From contig JAAFJU010000016.1 in assembly GCA_013298165.1 (NCBI GenBank), positions 1-57,693 on the forward strand: 57,693 nt of DNA, read 5' to 3'. This DNA comes from Synechococcales cyanobacterium bin31.maxbin.ball.101 (lineage in GTDB: Bacteria > Cyanobacteriota > Cyanobacteriia > Leptolyngbyales > Leptolyngbyaceae). The notes beneath the pieces were generated by a model. That model was given only the letters and a program-made list of their open reading frames with translations, searched no databases and had not been told where the DNA came from. This document shows positions 45,384 through 51,682 of this stretch, in pieces; position 1 is the first letter of the stretch, and every line of letters begins with the position of its first letter. The position numbers were made by a program, and so were the translations under genes.

Positions 45384-46400
45384 ATGATTTCTGGCTCCTT
45401 TCTTGACCGATCGGTCACAGCTTGTTTCATATTAGCGACGGCAGCCCTGTCGGTTTCGGCTCCTCCCGCTCTCGCACAGAAGGCCACGCCCGATTCCAGT
45501 ACGATGCGATCGTTGGCTCAAGACAACAGTATTCTCACGTTACAAGCTGGACAAAAACTGGCCCAAGAAGGAAGCAATGCCTACAACGCCGGAAACTTCC
45601 CCCTAGCTGTGAAAAAGCTCCAGGAATCTAAACTCGTCCTAGGACAGGTTTCAGACTTTCATCAGGTCTTAGTGAGCGCATTTGGCGGTCTCAATAGCAA
45701 AATCTCCGCCAGTGCCCGCGATCGGGCGGTGCGATCGGCCCAAGCCCGTGACGAAGCGACCTACGATCTGGCCCGGACTCACCGAGCCTTAAAGCAGGCC
45801 GACTTAGCCGTGCCGCTGTTAGTTCAAGTCTTAAGAAGTCAGCAGTCCACCCGCGAACTGGGTCAAAAAGCCTACAACGAACTCCTCCAGATCGGGTTCA
45901 TGGATATTCCTTACTCCGGTCAGCGGGAAGCTGAAGGCAAAAAAGGCAAAGCGACCGAAGCCCCTCCTACGGCTCCCGTGGCTCCGGCAACGCCAGAACT
46001 TGCCCTAGTCAGTTTGGCAGGTGGTGAGACCTTACTCAATGATGCCAAAACCGCGATCGCAGCCGGAAACTATTCCCTCGCCCAGACCAAACTCAAGGAA
46101 TCACGGAGTATGTTTACTCTGATTTCCAAGTTGTACGAGGATCTATTGGGTGTGTTTTCGGGCGTGGATACTCCCATTGCCAATAGCAGTCGCGATCGTG
46201 CCCTCGCTGCCGCTGAAAAACGCGACGAAGCCACCTATCAGCTAGCCCTCGTTCACCGTGCGATGAACCAGCCGGAGCTATCGGTGCCGCTTTTAATCCA
46301 GGTGATCAGAAGCCAGCAGGTAACAAGAGCATTAGGTAAGAAAGCCTACGCGCAACTGATTGAGCTAGGGTTTTCTGAAAATATTCCCTACAACCGCTAG
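45384..46400 (+). CDS. Exported protein with two copies of a helical repeat domain
   Basis: This 338-residue protein is not a named family to me. A signal peptide (SVTACFILATAALSVSAPPALA) is best placed with the ATG at 45384, though the frame opens at 45315. The mature part holds two about 120-residue domains that align with each other. The first runs from GQKLAQEGSNAYNAGNFPLAVKKLQESK to NELLQIGFMDIPY; the second from AKTAIAAGNYSLAQTKLKESR to AQLIELGFSENIPY. Each contains RDRA, RDEATY, ALVHRA-type and VPLLxQVxRSQQxTR segments. A Pro/Ala linker joins them. The folds look TPR-like. It is likely periplasmic; role unknown. Confidence 0.72.
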   Translation: MISGSFLDRSVTACFILATAALSVSAPPALAQKATPDSSTMRSLAQDNSILTLQAGQKLAQEGSNAYNAGNFPLAVKKLQESKLVLGQVSDFHQVLVSAFGGLNSKISASARDRAVRSAQARDEATYDLARTHRALKQADLAVPLLVQVLRSQQSTRELGQKAYNELLQIGFMDIPYSGQREAEGKKGKATEAPPTAPVAPATPELALVSLAGGETLLNDAKTAIAAGNYSLAQTKLKESRSMFTLISKLYEDLLGVFSGVDTPIANSSRDRALAAAEKRDEATYQLALVHRAMNQPELSVPLLIQVIRSQQVTRALGKKAYAQLIELGFSENIPYNR

Positions 46401-46401
46401 G

Positions 46402-46423
46402 ATTACGGATTGGAATCCGTAAT
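46402..46423. repeat. Perfect 10-bp hairpin after the duplicated-domain gene
   Basis: ATTACGGATT-GG-AATCCGTAAT is an exact inverted repeat starting right after the TAG stop. No T tract follows. Confidence 0.6.
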
Positions 46424-46462
46424 CAGGGTTTAGCAGTATCAACAAATTCGATCAGCGGCAGG

Positions 46463-46510
46463 CTGCGTTTATACAAACTGAGATTTTCTTCTTAGTTTGT
46501 ATAAACGCAG
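46463..46510. repeat. Perfect 17-bp inverted repeat upstream of brnTA
   Basis: CTGCGTTTATACAAACT (46463-46479) and AGTTTGTATAAACGCAG (46494-46510) pair exactly around a 14-nt loop, with three further base pairs extending inward after a G-T wobble. It lies just before the brnTA promoter and could be a terminator for the preceding gene or an operator. Confidence 0.75.
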
Positions 46511-46539
46511 TTATTGTAGCGACAAATTGTAGCTACAAT
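46511..46539 (+). promoter_or_regulatory. brnTA promoter with overlapping operator
   Basis: A -35-like TTATTG (46511-46516), a 17-nt spacer and -10 TACAAT (46534-46539) lie 26 nt before the brnT start. Within them are direct repeats ATTGTAGC (46513-46520 and 46526-46533) and the palindrome TTGTAGCTACAA (46527-46538). BrnA antitoxins autoregulate their operon, so this is the expected operator position. Confidence 0.55.
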
Positions 46540-46565
46540 AGAATTCCTATGGCAGTCATCCGGTA

Positions 46566-46646
46566 ATGGAATTTGAGTGGGATGAGGACAAACGCCTTGC
46601 CAACATCAAGAATCATCAAAATCTCCGTGAAACCCCGCCGTTCTAG
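46566..46646 (+). pseudogene. brnT: BrnT toxin gene, 5' fragment (split by TnpB element)
   Basis: ATG at 46566 opens MEFEWDEDKRLANIKNHQ, the canonical BrnT start (xFEWDxxKxxxNxxKH). After codon 18 (46619) the reading frame runs into the mobile element and stops at TAG (46644-46646) after eight foreign residues. The missing rest of the toxin continues in frame at 47949. The gene is therefore inactivated unless the element excises. Confidence 0.85.
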
Positions 46647-46735
46647 GGCGGGGAGGTAGAGGAGCGTCAGCTTTGCTGACACACCATGTTTGCTTAAAAC
46701 TAGGCATCTCACAAAACTCATATTAAAATGTGAGT

Positions 46736-47866
46736 ATGACACAACGCGCTTTCAAGTACCGATTCTATCCAACGCCTGAGCAAGAAACTTTGCTGAGACG
46801 GACGATTGGCTGTACCCGTCTTGTCTATAACCGCGCCCTGGCCGCAAGGACTGAGGCTTGGTATGAACGACAGGAACGGGTCGGGTACGTTGAAAGTTCG
46901 GCACTGTTGACGACCTGGAAGAAAGAGAACGGTCTCGAATTCTTGAATGAAGTTAGCTGTGTGCCACTGCAACAAGGATTGCGGCATCTCCAAAAAGCCT
47001 TTGGCAATTTCTGGGCAGGACGGGCTAAATATCCGACCTTCAAGAAAAAGCGTAATGGCGGCAGTGCGGAGTTCACCAAGTCGGGATTCAAGTTCAAAGA
47101 CGGTCAGGTATTCTTGGCTAAATCTTCGGACGCCTTGAATATCCGCTGGAGTCGATTCTTGCCCGAAGGCGCGGAGCCGTCCACTATTACGGTGAAGCTC
47201 TCGCCTGCTGGAAGATGGACTGTTTCCTTGTTGGTGGATATTGAGATTGAACCACTGCCAGAGTCTCCTAACAAAATTGGGATTGATTTGGGTATTACCA
47301 GTTTGGTCGCGTTGAGTACGGGCGAAAAGGTCGCCAATCCCAAAGGCTTTAAAGCCAAACGTCGCAAGCTGAGAAAAGCTCAGAAGGCATTGAGCCGCAA
47401 GGTTAAGGGTTCTAACAACCGCTATAAAGCCCGTCTCAAAGTTGCTAAAGTCCATGGGGAAATTAGTGATGCGCGACAAGATTTCCTTCACAAGCTGACG
47501 ACTCGATTGGTTCGTGAAAACCAAACGATCGCTGTCGAAGACTTGGCTGTGAAGAATATGGTCAAGAACCGGAAACTCTCACAGTCCATTAGCGATGCTA
47601 GTTGGGGAGAGTTGGTCAGGCAGCTTGAATACAAGTGCGACTGGTATGGTCGCAGCTTCGTCAAGATCGATCGATGGTTTCCGAGTTCTAAACGATGTGG
47701 GCATTGTGGTCACGTTGTTGAAAAGTTGCCGTTAAATATCCGGGAATGGGATTGCCCTAAATGTGGGACAACGCATGACCGGGATGTAAACGCTGCAAAT
47801 AATATTCTGGCCGCTGGTCTAGCGGTGTCAGTCTGTGGAGCGAACGTGAGACCGGATAAGCAATAG
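46736..47866 (+). CDS. tnpB: RNA-guided endonuclease TnpB (OrfB) of the IS element
   Basis: This 376-residue protein has an N-terminal helix-turn-helix (FKYRFYPTPEQETLLRRTIGCTRLVYNRAL), then a RuvC domain with Asp184 (IGIDLGITS), Glu268 (VEDLAVKNM) and Asp350 (HDRDVNAANNIL). The zinc finger CGHCG...CPKCG is between the last two. All catalytic and zinc residues are present, so it looks active. TnpB cuts DNA using an omega RNA made from the element's right end and helps retain the element after excision. The ATG at 46736 is preferred to the GTG two codons upstream. Full-length for the family. Confidence 0.95.
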   Translation: MTQRAFKYRFYPTPEQETLLRRTIGCTRLVYNRALAARTEAWYERQERVGYVESSALLTTWKKENGLEFLNEVSCVPLQQGLRHLQKAFGNFWAGRAKYPTFKKKRNGGSAEFTKSGFKFKDGQVFLAKSSDALNIRWSRFLPEGAEPSTITVKLSPAGRWTVSLLVDIEIEPLPESPNKIGIDLGITSLVALSTGEKVANPKGFKAKRRKLRKAQKALSRKVKGSNNRYKARLKVAKVHGEISDARQDFLHKLTTRLVRENQTIAVEDLAVKNMVKNRKLSQSISDASWGELVRQLEYKCDWYGRSFVKIDRWFPSSKRCGHCGHVVEKLPLNIREWDCPKCGTTHDRDVNAANNILAAGLAVSVCGANVRPDKQ

Positions 47867-47948
47867 CTTTGATGGCGGTTGCTATGAAGCAGAAACCCTA
47901 AGAAGTGATTCTTAGAATCCCCGCGCCTTTAGGACGGGGAGTAGTCAA
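47790..47948 (+). ncRNA. Probable omega RNA (reRNA) scaffold at the right end
   Basis: In TnpB systems the guide RNA scaffold overlaps the 3' end of tnpB and stops at the right end of the element, with the guide taken from the flank. Here the expected hairpins lie at 47899-47914 and 47919-47939 and the end is 47948. The 5' boundary is a guess. The guide would begin GGTATCGATTTTGTCG, the interrupted brnT sequence. Confidence 0.5.
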
Positions 47949-48173
47949 GGTATCGATTTTGTCGATGTGTCAGAGGTTTTTGATGGCGATACCTTTACCG
48001 TCGAGGACGACCGCTACAGTTACGGAGAGCAGCGTTTTGTGACCTTTGGCTTGTTAAAAGGTAGCGTCGTTGCTGTTGTTAATACTGACCGTGGTGAGTT
48101 TATTCGGATTATTTCTATACGAAAGGCAACTAAAAATGAGTACAGATCCTACTTCCAAGCGATCGCAGACTGA
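47949..48173 (+). pseudogene. brnT: BrnT toxin gene, 3' fragment
   Basis: Beginning at GGT (47949) directly after the element, the frame reads GIDFVDVSEVFDGDTFTVED, then GEQRFVTFGLLKGSVVAVV and IRIISIRKATKNEYRSY before TGA at 48171. These are the strands and the RIISxRKAxxxE helix of the BrnT RNase fold, including its catalytic Arg/Lys region. Joined to codons 1-18 it gives a 92-residue toxin with no frameshift or stop. As it stands a GTG at 47967 could start a truncated product, but it lacks the N-terminal helix. It overlaps the brnA start by 38 nt. Confidence 0.85.
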
Positions 48174-48411
48174 TTGGCAGCGGCTCGAAGCGATGACCGA
48201 TGAAGATATTGATTTATCAGATTGTCCAGAAATTACACCCGAGCAATTTGCTAGAGGAGTCGTGCGAAGGGGTTTGCCCGTGGCTAAAAATAAGGCACAG
48301 ATTACATTACGGGTTGATAGTGATGTGTTGGAGTGGTTTAAAGCTCAAGGACGTGGATATCAGACCCAGATCAATACGTTGCTGAAAGCCTACATGGAAG
48401 CACATAGATAA
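48136..48411 (+). CDS. brnA: BrnA antitoxin
   Basis: This 91-residue protein starts at the ATG at 48136, inside the 3' end of brnT (38-nt overlap, the usual brnTA layout). The N-terminal part is acidic (WQRLEAMTDEDIDLSDCPEITPEQF) and binds the toxin. The C-terminal part, KAQITLRVDSDVLEWFKAQGRGYQTQINTLLKAYMEAH, is a ribbon-helix-helix DNA-binding domain for operon autoregulation. An upstream frame to 48070 exists but belongs to the toxin overlap. The antitoxin is intact while its toxin is split. Distance from the original promoter is now 1.6 kb, so expression may depend on read-through of the element. Confidence 0.9.
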   Translation: MSTDPTSKRSQTDWQRLEAMTDEDIDLSDCPEITPEQFARGVVRRGLPVAKNKAQITLRVDSDVLEWFKAQGRGYQTQINTLLKAYMEAHR

Positions 48412-48432
48412 CTTTTTTCTGTTCATGCCTGA

Positions 48433-48765
48433 TCACTGCAAGGTATCGGACGATCGCTCATCAAGCCAAATCGTCAAATCAGACAGTTGCTCAAAATCGA
48501 GCAATGCCTCGCCTAATGATTCGAGTTGGATAACCGATAGTTGTTCAACTTGCGATCGAAGTTCCGCAGGCAAAATACCAATTCGTCTCGCTAATAATCG
48601 GATGACGAGCGATCGAGTTTGCTGTTGTCCGATCGCAATTCCCCTAGCCTGTCCTTTGGCTTCTGTGGCTTGTTCCCAATCCAGAAATGCTTGCGAGAAT
48701 GCCATGATGATCTCCTGCCCGAAAAAGTTTTCAACTTCACCTACTTCGATTTTAACGCCCCACAT
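48433..48765 (-). CDS. DUF4351-containing C-terminal fragment of an Rpn-type nuclease
   Basis: This 110-residue protein is made of FSQAFLDWEQATEAKGQARGIAIGQQQ and RLLARRIGILPAELRSQVEQLSVIQLESLGEALLDFEQLSDLTIWL. The second part is the DUF4351 helix pair found at the C-terminus of Rpn/PD-(D/E)XK transposase-like nucleases. The nuclease domain (about 200 residues) that normally precedes it is absent; the sequence upstream becomes a tandem repeat instead. It is probably a decayed remnant or a stand-alone small protein. The first 20 residues (MWGVKIEVGEVENFFGQEII) have no clear match. Confidence 0.6.
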   Translation of the reverse strand: MWGVKIEVGEVENFFGQEIIMAFSQAFLDWEQATEAKGQARGIAIGQQQTRSLVIRLLARRIGILPAELRSQVEQLSVIQLESLGEALLDFEQLSDLTIWLDERSSDTLQ

Positions 48766-48787
48766 CGATGCAGGACTATAAAAAAGT

Positions 48788-48891
48788 CGATCGGAGATTT
48801 TTTAATTGAGTTGGGGATTTTTTAACTCGATCGGAGTTTCCGTAATTCGATCGGGGATTTTTTAATTGAGTTGGGGATTTTTTAACTCGAT
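48788..48891. repeat. Two-copy 60-bp tandem repeat
   Basis: CGATCGG(A/G)GATTTTTTAATTGAGTTGGGGATTTTTTAACTCGAT occurs at 48788-48831 and again exactly 60 bp later at 48848-48891 with one mismatch. Each unit itself contains two GGGGATTTTTTAA-like sub-repeats. Too few copies and no spacers for CRISPR. It lies at the truncated 5' side of the DUF4351 fragment. Confidence 0.85.
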
Positions 48892-49141
48892 TTTGCTGAA
48901 GGGCGATCGGCTGATCAATAATTTCGGGAGTTCAGAAGAAGATTGAGGGGTCTGCGATCCAATAGTTTTCGAGGTTCTGGATCCATATCATCTCCCAATT
49001 CAGTCTAATTCCTGGTTTTGGGATCTTAGGCAGATTGGCGAAATTCTTTGTCCTGGAATATACTGAGATGGTCAGTCTAAGATCCAAATTTAGGTACTTA
49101 AGCGGACAACTTAGGCATACAACTATCCATCCATATAATTG
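48892..49141. other. Non-coding stretch before the cassette array
   Basis: No gene or integrase frame is visible here. It ends at the G of GTTGGGTAGC (49141), the R'-box-like point where the first cassette begins. It could contain a relic of an attI or a target site; I see no attC-like stem upstream of 49141. Confidence 0.35.
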
Positions 49142-49791
49142 TTGGGTAGCTTAAATCATCTGTGAGGGCAATTCTAGAAAGTTACCTGATTGAGCGATAG
49201 ATACGATTAAACATACGATGATTTTTATGGCTGAATCGAAAAAAGATAAATCTAGAATACGAGCTGTTTCAGCAGCAGATAACGAGATAGGTCAAGAAAG
49301 ATTTGAGCTTTACAGGGCTGCATTTTCTTGGATCTCAAATGCTATAGATAACGGCTATTACCTAGAAGCAATTAGCATTGAAGAAAGCCTGATTTCTGAT
49401 CGTTTAGAGAGCTATTTGTCTTTTTTGAAAGATGAAGATTTTAGTTTTAAGACCCTTGGCAATTTAATTGATGCATTCAGATCAAAAGAAAGTAAGGCAG
49501 ATGAGCTTTTACGTTCTATTGTTATTGACAAAGTAAATTCATGGAGAATAAGGAGAAATATTGCTGCTCATGAGATGGTTAAAATTGAAGATGGCAAGAA
49601 TATCAATTGGGCAGATCGAGTAAAAATCAATCAGGACGTAGCAAGAGATGGGTTAGAATTAGTGCGTGAAATTGATGGGCAAGTTCGGAAAGTGCGCTCA
49701 AAAAATGCGCTACCCAACAACCGCAATGCACCGGAACTTTGAAGTATACTAATTGGTAGCCAAAGTTATCTGAGTCCGGTGATTGCGAACG
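49142..49791 (+). mobile_element. Integron-type gene cassette 1 (HEPN-like gene plus attC)
   Basis: The cassette starts TTGGGTAGC after a G at 49141 and ends with attC, cut between G49791 and TT. Its first bases GTTGGGTAGC are the exact reverse complement of the R'' box GCTACCCAAC at 49709-49718, as required when an excised cassette circle rebuilds its own attC. One gene fills it in the usual orientation. Base composition is distinctly more AT-rich than the core genes either side. Confidence 0.78.
49218..49742 (+). CDS. HEPN-like protein in gene cassette 1
   Basis: This 174-residue soluble, helical protein has segments RAAFSWISNAIDNGYYLEAISIEESLISDRLESYLSFL, GNLIDAFRSK and VNSWRIRRNIAAHEMVKI. 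The R113-N-x3-H118 motif (R-x4-H) is the RNase site of HEPN domains, and the YYLEAISIEESLISDRL helix is common to a family of HEPN-like cassette and phage-region proteins. It may be an RNA-cutting toxin or defence factor; no partner antitoxin is adjacent. An in-frame ATG three codons later (49227) is an alternative start. The last codons lie inside the attC site. Confidence 0.65.
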   Translation: MIFMAESKKDKSRIRAVSAADNEIGQERFELYRAAFSWISNAIDNGYYLEAISIEESLISDRLESYLSFLKDEDFSFKTLGNLIDAFRSKESKADELLRSIVIDKVNSWRIRRNIAAHEMVKIEDGKNINWADRVKINQDVARDGLELVREIDGQVRKVRSKNALPNNRNAPEL

Positions 49792-49797
49792 TTATGC
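49709..49797 (+). other. attC recombination site 1
   Basis: R'' box ACCCAAC (49712-49718) is followed by a 3-nt spacer AAC, then CGCAAT-G-CACCGGA (49722-49735), a variable loop with an inner AACTTTG/CAAAGTT stem, then TCCGGTG-ATTGCG (49775-49787), spacer AAC, and R' GTTATGC (49791-49797). The 13-bp stem with a single extrahelical G at 49728 and the symmetric unpaired spacers are the structural hallmarks read by integron integrases on the folded strand. Confidence 0.82.
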
Positions 49798-50713
49798 CGC
49801 TTAGTTCTTGGTAGAGATACAATCGGAGCTTTGCTTATCGAGATTTTGGAATTAAGCTAGACCGAGCTTGTTTGTGAAGTGTTACTTTAGAAGCAAGCAG
49901 GAGACGAACCATTAAGCTTTGAGAGAGAGCTTTATGCTATCAAGATCGCCAGAAAATTGGAGTGACAAAGAAGGTTGGGAAGATTATTGGAGAAAGACTT
50001 TAGCGGACGATGAATGGTTAATTAAAAAGCGGTTATTACAAGACACTGAATATTTTGATTCTATTGATTACTTTAAATCCGAAGGTATTAGAAATGTTCT
50101 GTTTCTAGGCTGCGGTATCTCTCAAGCCCCCAAGTTTTTTGTTTTTGGAGGTTTGCAGGCTACAGGTTTAGATGTATCGGAGACAGCTATAAACTTTGCC
50201 ATAAATTATGCGTTTGAGTATGAGAAGTTTTATCGCTGGTTTAACTCACAGAAATTCAAAGTAAACAAGCAAGTCTGGATTGAATTCTGTTCTGTATCTA
50301 GAAAAGCAAGTTATGAGTGTGGTAGCATCCTTGACCCAAATGTTGCTCAAGGGGCTTTTGATTTAGTTGTAGCCACAAAGATGTTGCAAGGTTTTTGTAA
50401 AGATCAATTCAAAATACGTGAGATTTTAGAATGTATAGATCAAAGATTGACGAGTAATGGAAAGTTATTAATTTTCACAATCAATGCTCCAAGTGCTAGA
50501 GAAATGATTGACGACCAATTGACAAGAATGGGATATGGCAATATTAAGCAGCTATCAGATAGTAATGGTAAATTAGGTAAGTCTTTTCTGCATCTACTGG
50601 CAAGTGCATAGCTCTCAACTTAGTGAGTATTCGCGACATAACAATCGCCATGCAACGGACGAGCGACAATTGCTGGTGTAGATGTAAAGGTGTGGGTCGC
50701 CGCATGGCGGTCG
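49792..50713 (+). mobile_element. Integron-type gene cassette 2 (methyltransferase gene plus degenerate attC)
   Basis: The cassette starts TTATGCCGC at 49792. Its first ten bases from G49791 (GTTATGCCGC) match the reverse complement of the terminal R'' box GCGACATAAC (50633-50642) at 9 of 10 positions. It carries one AT-rich gene followed by an attC whose left half is well formed. The right edge, near 50713, is less clear because the R' box is degenerate and meets the stop of the next core gene. Confidence 0.65.
49934..50611 (+). CDS. Class I SAM-dependent methyltransferase in gene cassette 2
   Basis: This 225-residue protein has the Rossmann-type SAM fold: motif I IRNVLFLGCGISQAP (about 52-66), the ribose-binding ATGLDVSETAINFA, motif IV FDLVVATKMLQGF and the post-motif strand NGKLLIFTINA. 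The ATG at 49934 is chosen over a TTG at 49919 because it follows GAGAGAGAGCTTT, a good ribosome site. The substrate is unknown; the W-rich N-terminus (WSDKEGWEDYWRKTL) resembles small-molecule or thiopurine-type methyltransferases found in cassettes. Codon use is AT-rich, unlike the core genes. It is followed by the second attC-like site. Confidence 0.75.
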   Translation: MLSRSPENWSDKEGWEDYWRKTLADDEWLIKKRLLQDTEYFDSIDYFKSEGIRNVLFLGCGISQAPKFFVFGGLQATGLDVSETAINFAINYAFEYEKFYRWFNSQKFKVNKQVWIEFCSVSRKASYECGSILDPNVAQGAFDLVVATKMLQGFCKDQFKIREILECIDQRLTSNGKLLIFTINAPSAREMIDDQLTRMGYGNIKQLSDSNGKLGKSFLHLLASA

Positions 50714-50719
50714 CTACTG
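50633..50719 (+). other. attC-like site 2 (partly degenerate)
   Basis: R'' GCGACATAAC (50633-50642), spacer AAT, CGCCAT-G-CAACGGAC (50646-50660) show the same layout as site 1, including the extrahelical G (50652). On the right, ATGGCG (50704-50709) pairs with CGCCAT, but the inner arm and the R' box (GCTACTG, where GTTRRRY is expected) have diverged. Confidence 0.6.
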
Positions 50720-51682
50720 CGGTTGATCGATCGGCTTCGATCGGCTGCAATAGACCACCAATGCAATAAACAATGCCGTGCCAAACAAATACTTCATCGG
50801 AGCCGGAAGCCAAAGCTGCGGTGAAACAAACGCCTCAATCACCCCCGCCACAATCAACAGCGCCACCACCCCAAACATCAACTGCGCCGCCTTCAACCCA
50901 TACAGCTTAAAGGCATCCACCCGCCGATACTCACCCGGAAACAACAGCGCCCGAGCAATCAATAATCCCGCTCCCCCCGAAATGAAAATCGCAGGTAACT
51001 CCAAAGACCCATGGGGCAACACAAACGCCCAAAACGGATAGGCCAATCCCCCCTGCGCCACCAAAACGCCCACCGCCCCAATCAATAGACCGTTAAACAC
51101 CAAAATATAAGTCGTAAACAGTCCCGCCGTAATCCCACCCGCCGCCGCCCGAAAGGAAACGCTGAGATTATTCGTCATGATCGAACTAGACGACATCGGT
51201 TCATTACCCAAAATCCGTCCCATCCACAACTTCTTCTCCGTCATCACCATATCAATCATGGGCTGAGGAACCACGATCGTCATAAATGCCGGATCCCGCC
51301 ACGCATACCACCAAGCCACCAAGCCACCGACTAAAAACATCAACGTCGCCAGCCCAATATAAAGCGCCGTCTCCTGCACCACCGCCGGAAACCCCCACAG
51401 GACAAACTCCCGCGCCGCCTTCCAGTCTTGACGGCGAGAGCCTTGATAGACTTGGCTATAAGCCCTCGTTGTCAGAACTTGTAAGCTGTGGGTCAAGGTT
51501 TGGCCGAGTTGGTGGGTGCGGGCACGGGCGAGATCGGCGGAGACAATTCGATAGAGGCTGGAGAGCGATCGGACCTCTGAAGCATTCAGGGATTTAAAGC
51601 CTTGCTTGTCGATTTTTTGGAGGAGAGCCTCTAGTTGTTTCCAGAGAGGTTCCTTACGATTAATCCAGCGCTGGAGATTCAT
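50714..51682 (-). CDS. Stage II sporulation protein M-like membrane protein (SpoIIM/DUF95)
   Basis: This 322-residue protein has a helical cytoplasmic start (about 1-95, LEALLQKIDKQGFKSLNASEVRSLSSLYR) and six or so transmembrane helices. The SpoIIM signature includes RAAAGGITAGLFTTYILVFNGLLIGAV and FVLPHGSLELPAIFISGGAGLLIA. Outside spore formers the family occurs with RDD, MoxR and DUF58 genes and may serve in membrane or envelope organisation. The RDD gene nearby fits. Its stop codon coincides with the right edge of the cassette array. Confidence 0.88.
   Translation of the reverse strand: MNLQRWINRKEPLWKQLEALLQKIDKQGFKSLNASEVRSLSSLYRIVSADLARARTHQLGQTLTHSLQVLTTRAYSQVYQGSRRQDWKAAREFVLWGFPAVVQETALYIGLATLMFLVGGLVAWWYAWRDPAFMTIVVPQPMIDMVMTEKKLWMGRILGNEPMSSSSIMTNNLSVSFRAAAGGITAGLFTTYILVFNGLLIGAVGVLVAQGGLAYPFWAFVLPHGSLELPAIFISGGAGLLIARALLFPGEYRRVDAFKLYGLKAAQLMFGVVALLIVAGVIEAFVSPQLWLPAPMKYLFGTALFIALVVYCSRSKPIDQPQ

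Follow-up and report, generated by a model that had tools for sequence, protein, structure and literature searches.

How do two integron-type gene cassettes come to lie in a cyanobacterial chromosome far from any integrase, when integrons are described as a single platform that holds the integrase gene (intI), the attI site and the cassette array in cis? The window analysed here (the whole stretch of 57,693 nucleotides) contains such a pair beside a SpoIIM-family gene, with no intI in the window and no trace of one in the 9 kb to the left of the cassettes.

A cluster of attC sites lacking an integron-integrase is termed a CALIN (IntegronFinder 2.0, PMC9024848), and with at least two attC sites and no intI nearby, the locus is CALIN-like, as the original prediction had it. 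The same prediction singled the array out for attention because such arrays are best known from Proteobacteria, but an integron in a cyanobacterium is not unexpected, given that integrons in Cyanobacteria were reported by 2008 (PMC2426708; also PMC8618304), that a taxon-specific attC model exists for this group (PMC8352920), and that intI exceeds the curated cut-off in 31 of the 58 genomes that we searched. The basic kind, cyanobacterial integron cassettes in a CALIN, is already known. On the strength of sequence comparisons, we propose to read the locus as an integron platform that lacks an integrase of its own, one of a set of scattered attI-plus-cassette platforms probably served in trans, and we give this reading a probability of roughly 0.7.

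Layout of the locus and its attC sites

The features of the locus, in window coordinates, are as follows.

48993..49141, + strand: attI-like docking site, with iterons at 48998-49034 and 49055-49119 (profile R2 and a near copy at C10:880-998)
Between 49141 and 49142: crossover of the attI-like core GGCATACAACTATCCATCCATATAATT^G, adjoining cassette 1
49142..49791, + strand: gene cassette 1, from TTGGGTAGC to the G of the next R' (10/10 R'/R'' complementarity, attI-like site at its left end)
49218..49742, + strand: cassette 1 ORF, 174 aa, HEPN-like by weak profile matches (start ATG at 49218 or 49227)
49709..49800, + strand: attC site 1 (model R1, 59.5 bits, E 1.2e-14; fold)
49792..50713, + strand: gene cassette 2 (9/10 R'/R'' complementarity)
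49934..50611, + strand: cassette 2 ORF, predicted class I SAM-dependent methyltransferase, 225 aa (230 aa from TTG 49919)
50633..50722, + strand: attC site 2, degenerate (R1, 32.9 bits, E 4.7e-7)
50714..51682, - strand: SpoIIM-family membrane protein, the chromosomal neighbour (Pfam SpoIIM, E 1e-41)

The extent first assigned to the feature, 49141-50719, covers the cassettes and leaves out the attI-like head at about 48993-49141. Both cassettes are AT-rich, with GC contents of 0.374 and 0.386 vs 0.498 for the window, and the stop codon of the SpoIIM gene abuts the right cassette border. To the left of the platform, at 46730-48765, lie an IS200/IS605-type TnpB, a BrnT/BrnA-like toxin-antitoxin pair and a DUF4351 gene.

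The borders originally proposed for the cassettes hold. Cassette 1 starts with GTTGGGTAGC (49141-49150), of which the R'' box GCTACCCAAC (49709-49718) is the exact 10-nt reverse complement, while cassette 2 starts with GTTATGCCGC (49791-49800) and its R'' box GCGACATAAC (50633-50642) pairs at 9 of 10 positions. The architecture described for site 1 is likewise borne out: R'' GCTACCCAAC, L'' CGCAAT-G-CACCGGA, L' TCCGGTG-ATTGCG and R' GTTATGCCGC are separated by AAC/AAC spacers, the L stem consists of 6 bp, an extrahelical G and 7 bp, and the crossover triplet is GTT. A simple structural scan finds the full attC pattern in the window only at this site, and none of 20 shuffled windows yields a 12/12 stem with an extrahelical G. 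In folding, the bottom strand of site 1 adopts the attC hairpin with a z-score of -3.74, compared with -2.52 for the top strand.

Site 2 was described as having the same left half with the same extrahelical G, which is correct (R'' GCGACATAAC, L'' CGCCAT-G-CAACGGA); the right half is also present at the correct distance, with an outer L' of ATGGCG that closes the outer 6-bp stem, but the inner arm is unpaired and R' reads GCT (50713-50715), not GTT. In folding, site 2 by itself does not surpass 15 of 200 shuffles. By its overall score site 2 is classed as an attC, but a degenerate one.

An exact attC pattern run genome-wide recovered site 1 alone and was too strict, so a covariance model (R1) was used instead. 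R1 was trained on 10 attC sites, of which relatives supplied five and a different contig of the genome the other five; neither site of the window is included. The model matches both window sites significantly, with no further match in the 57.7-kb window up to E = 10. Compensatory changes occur in 7 of 15 stem pairs, and the covariation score was reached by none of 500 shuffles; with site 1 added to the alignment, 96.4% of cells pair, and slid controls collapse. Rfam gave no match in the window at gathering thresholds.

An attI-like site heads the cassettes

Alignment of the left borders of the dispersed arrays described below revealed a shared element with (T)AATT^GTT at its end. True attI sites beside intI in relatives are made up of imperfect palindromes of the type GGGATCTTAGGCGGAAANTTTCCGTCTAATAAT(T/A)^GTT, arranged in tandem with a period of about 40 nt. 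From 14 attI sites we built a sequence-only profile (R2), leaving out the window and the loci C10, C194 and C271. In the window, R2 matches at 49057-49119 (- strand, E 1.3e-6), 49055-49117 (+ strand, E 6.1e-6) and 48998-49034 (E 0.007), and these matches are confined to the stretch directly left of cassette 1. The core of the site is divergent, as R2 aligns the iterons to model position 66-70 of 77, short of the crossover.

By sequence, then, attI-type repeats and a core stand beside the G^TT of the first cassette, which qualifies the stretch as an attI-like site. The original prediction overlooked it, and its presence makes the locus a platform with a docking site, not two stray cassettes. 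It also provides a concrete definition of attI in cyanobacteria, tandem palindromic iterons of about 40 nt, that is searchable and testable. A promoter-like TATAAT lies inside the core (49134-49139); such matches do not exceed their frequency in shuffles.

One integrase and many platforms in the same genome

The genome is a draft assembly of 5.39 Mb in 356 contigs. The original prediction reported no integrase gene in the window, which holds. In the genome, a single intI exceeds the curated cut-off; it is intact (C305:4258-5199; TIGR02249, 458 bits vs a cut-off of 265), and the array is therefore not integrase-orphaned at genome level. Five attC sites lie behind this intI. In this home integron (L009:5367-8423), a DUF1232-like cassette occurs twice, the copies showing no difference over at least 300 nt, and its attC occurs in three nearly identical copies. 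These copies suggest recent integrase activity at C305, the doubled cassette being a sign of recent rearrangement. A tandem array of 21-nt units of the GAGTTACAAACGAACGTTGCT type lies downstream of intI (L009:3860-4130).

The genome-wide search for intI and further attC sites, proposed together with the original prediction, was thus productive on both counts. R1 finds 23 attC sites, spread over 14 contigs; 18 of the sites lie away from intI, and the pair in the window is one such cluster. Attached to C305, and also to C319, C86, C272, C201, C353, C271, C194, C10 and the window locus itself (C351), are attI-like sites that head attC cassettes, so that eight loci besides the window show this arrangement without intI. 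R2 is significant at these loci apart from C10, where its matches are weak. It also matches at C168 and C282, neither of them with an attC in the vicinity.

Six of the R2 loci in this genome belong to the training set and six lie outside it. Among those outside, attC sites occur at four (C351, C10, C194 and C271) and are lacking at C282 and C168; by chance, with 23 attC sites in 5.4 Mb, only about 0.3% of random points would have an attC on the right strand within 1.5 kb. No intI traces were found at the platforms of this genome that were tested. At C272 the assembly includes only 120 nt upstream of attI, and an intI may lie beyond.

The attI-like site at C168 (19440-19512; L146) resembles the attI region of C305, with 83% identity over 95 nt. 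No attC accompanies it, and the gene immediately downstream is a chromosomal one that looks SelO-like by eye; the site is possibly an empty docking site.

Common flanks carrying different cassettes

Upstream of the cassettes, the window matches C10 in blocks that are 82-97% identical. Both have the same attI core and neither has intI; some 70 nt of iterons present at C10 are missing from the window. At the crossover base the cassettes diverge, with a 136-aa ORF following at C10 and the HEPN-like ORF in the window. The two loci thereby constitute a natural experiment, one platform with different cassettes. Short tandem units of the GATCGGGGATTTTTTAATTGAGTTGGGG type, at 48780-48895 of the window, are also common to the C10 platform, upstream of the attI-like site.

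Two more families, C353/C271 and C319/C86/C201, likewise combine the same flank with different cassettes. Over 453 nt, the first C86 cassette has 88% identity to the third one in the C305 array. The upstream flank of C319 is 81.6% identical over 532 nt to the region behind the C305 intI; in sequence, C319 looks like the C305 locus minus its intI segment. The segment behind intI that recurs beside the C319 platform (L138) corresponds to L009:3351-3856 on the home integron contig and appears to hold a small reverse-strand gene.

We read the different cassettes on common flanks as marks of site-specific exchange at intI-less platforms, and it is because of these marks that service in trans is preferred over inert remains. 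As a counterpoint, different cassettes on the same flank could also arise by gene conversion, or by insertion before the loss of intI.

Related genomes and controls

Relatives show the same association. attC sites were found in 23 of 25 genomes searched, and R2 matches at E <= 0.001 in 12 of 14, the two genomes without R2 matches (G035 and G038) being also without attC. We took 20 dispersed attI-like loci of relatives from the R2 match list; at 16 of them an attC follows downstream, within 6 kb and on the same strand. The first cassette mostly starts at the attI end, with 7-10 of 10 positions of R'' complementarity, and one of the 20 loci (L213, G006:C8) has a complete intI about 5 kb away. 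An intI fragment lies behind attI at 3 of 19 of the relatives' platforms, and none was found in about 3 kb upstream at the other 16. For three genomes (G001, G007 and G014) the intI search gives no match at E below 1e-40, yet they contain 23, 39 and 39 attC sites, respectively.

Control regions are nearly devoid of such sites. In 185 kb around SpoIIM genes there is no attC beyond those of the window, and in 672 kb around the SpoIIM genes of 80 named cyanobacteria there is no attI-like site and one weak attC-like match, about 3.7 kb from SpoIIM. Two outcomes had been named as refuting the original prediction, and neither is seen: R1 is significant at both sites, and relatives, judged by these 80 orthologous neighbourhoods, do not carry the cassette genes at this place.

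A comparison with sister strains, in search of an empty site, had also been suggested, and its outcome is mixed: the cassettes are absent beside SpoIIM in relatives, in keeping with a gain in this lineage, and a clean empty site is not demonstrable because the sister genomes differ in the left flank. Siblings G001-G003 keep SpoIIM, at 82-84% identity, and in three same-genus genomes SpoIIM has a longer C-terminus and no adjoining cassettes, an attC noted there (L061:9829) being 6.6 kb from SpoIIM. The sppA gene and the next ORF, left of the cassettes in the window, are on contigs other than that of SpoIIM in G001 and G002, and the ORF next to sppA was not found in G003. From these comparisons, positions 46400-50714 of the window mark a synteny breakpoint. 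The gene that follows SpoIIM in G003 sits on C338 in the source genome.

Mechanism and alternative origins

In the proposed mechanism, the C305 IntI most likely inserts and removes cassettes at the scattered platforms in trans, and recombination at G^TT would join the folded bottom strand of attC to the attI-like site. Several platforms would probably have arisen when integron ends were duplicated and intI was lost. By recombination between the attI-like site and the intact attC1, cassette 1 should still be excisable; cassette 2 is probably locked, because the R' of attC2 is GCT. Whereas the att sites, their borders, the association of attI-like sites with attC arrays, the distant intI and the common flank of C10 with another cassette can be read directly from the sequence, action in trans, current activity and origin by intI loss are what we infer from it.

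The strongest competing account holds that the locus is the remainder of a complete integron that received its cassettes with intI in cis, then lost the gene and is now inert. An attI with cassettes and no intI is the expected residue of such a loss, which is listed as one source of CALINs (PMC8618304), and the degenerate attC2 fits as well. The intI fragments in the right position at 3 of 19 relatives' platforms and the resemblance of C319 to C305 make intI loss a real source of platforms. Against inertness stand the lack of intI traces at the tested platforms of this genome and, above all, C10 and C351, whose common flank is intI-less and whose cassettes differ at the same base, for which exchange after intI loss is the simpler account. 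We consider an inert remnant unlikely, bearing in mind that intI loss and service in trans are compatible.

Insertion of the cassettes by IntI at an ordinary genomic attG site is a known mechanism (Loot et al. 2024, as cited in PMC12901181), and the GCT of the right border, which prompted us to consider it as the main reading, is consistent with the relaxed GNT rule of secondary sites (PMC10127599). We dropped it in view of the left border, an attI-like iteron array that is repeated at other occupied loci, whereas attG sites reportedly diverge greatly from classical att sites (PMC12901181); it now seems very improbable. Chance inverted repeats unrelated to integrons would suit the folding of site 2 taken alone, but the R1 matches at both sites and nowhere else in 57.7 kb, together with the shuffled-window control and the covariation, reduce this idea to a negligible one and refute it for site 1.

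An intI-less platform served in trans has affinities with each of the known systems. Like a CALIN, it has cassettes with two attC sites and lacks a nearby intI; it differs in its attI-like head, in the many such platforms of the genome and in the intact intI elsewhere. With the sedentary chromosomal integron of Cyanobacteria (PMC2426708; PMC8352920) it shares the AAC/AAC spacers and the arms of 6 bp, G and 6-7 bp, and its attI iterons are related to those at the intI-bearing C305; unlike that system, it has no integrase in cis and only two cassettes. As in attG insertion (in the account of Loot et al. 2024 given by PMC12901181), the cassettes lie outside an integron, presumably placed by IntI in trans, but the target resembles attI in sequence and iteron layout. 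No description of an attI-headed, scattered, intI-less platform was found in the literature searched, drawn mainly from outside the subscription journals.

More broadly, and with odds that we put somewhat short of even, filamentous cyanobacteria may have a distributed integron, in which tens of scattered attI platforms are served in trans by a single integrase or by a few, with short exchangeable arrays near chromosomal genes and no single large array. If attI-like sites are scattered and served in this way, cassettes could be kept and expressed at many places in the chromosome and shuttled round it by an enzyme acting at a distance, and many clusters filed as degraded CALINs would be working platforms.

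Proteins encoded by the cassettes

The functions of both cassette genes are inferred from motifs and profile matches. The protein of cassette 1 contains an HEPN-type R-x4-H motif (RNIAAH) and matches PADLOC CARF_HEPN weakly (E 1.8e-5) and Pfam Cas_Csm6_HEPN below the cut-off (E 0.0043), which points to an HEPN-like protein. Its AlphaFold model, computed for the protein alone, is poor (pLDDT 49), and searches of solved structures returned nothing useful. The protein of cassette 2 is a predicted SAM methyltransferase, with 22.1 bits against a cut-off of 21.2 for Methyltransf_11 and E 5.1e-5 for Methyltransf_12, below the cut-off of that family. The 3' end of the cassette 1 ORF overlaps attC1, and a relative of its protein, 38% identical and in another family, is encoded directly upstream of an attC (L133).
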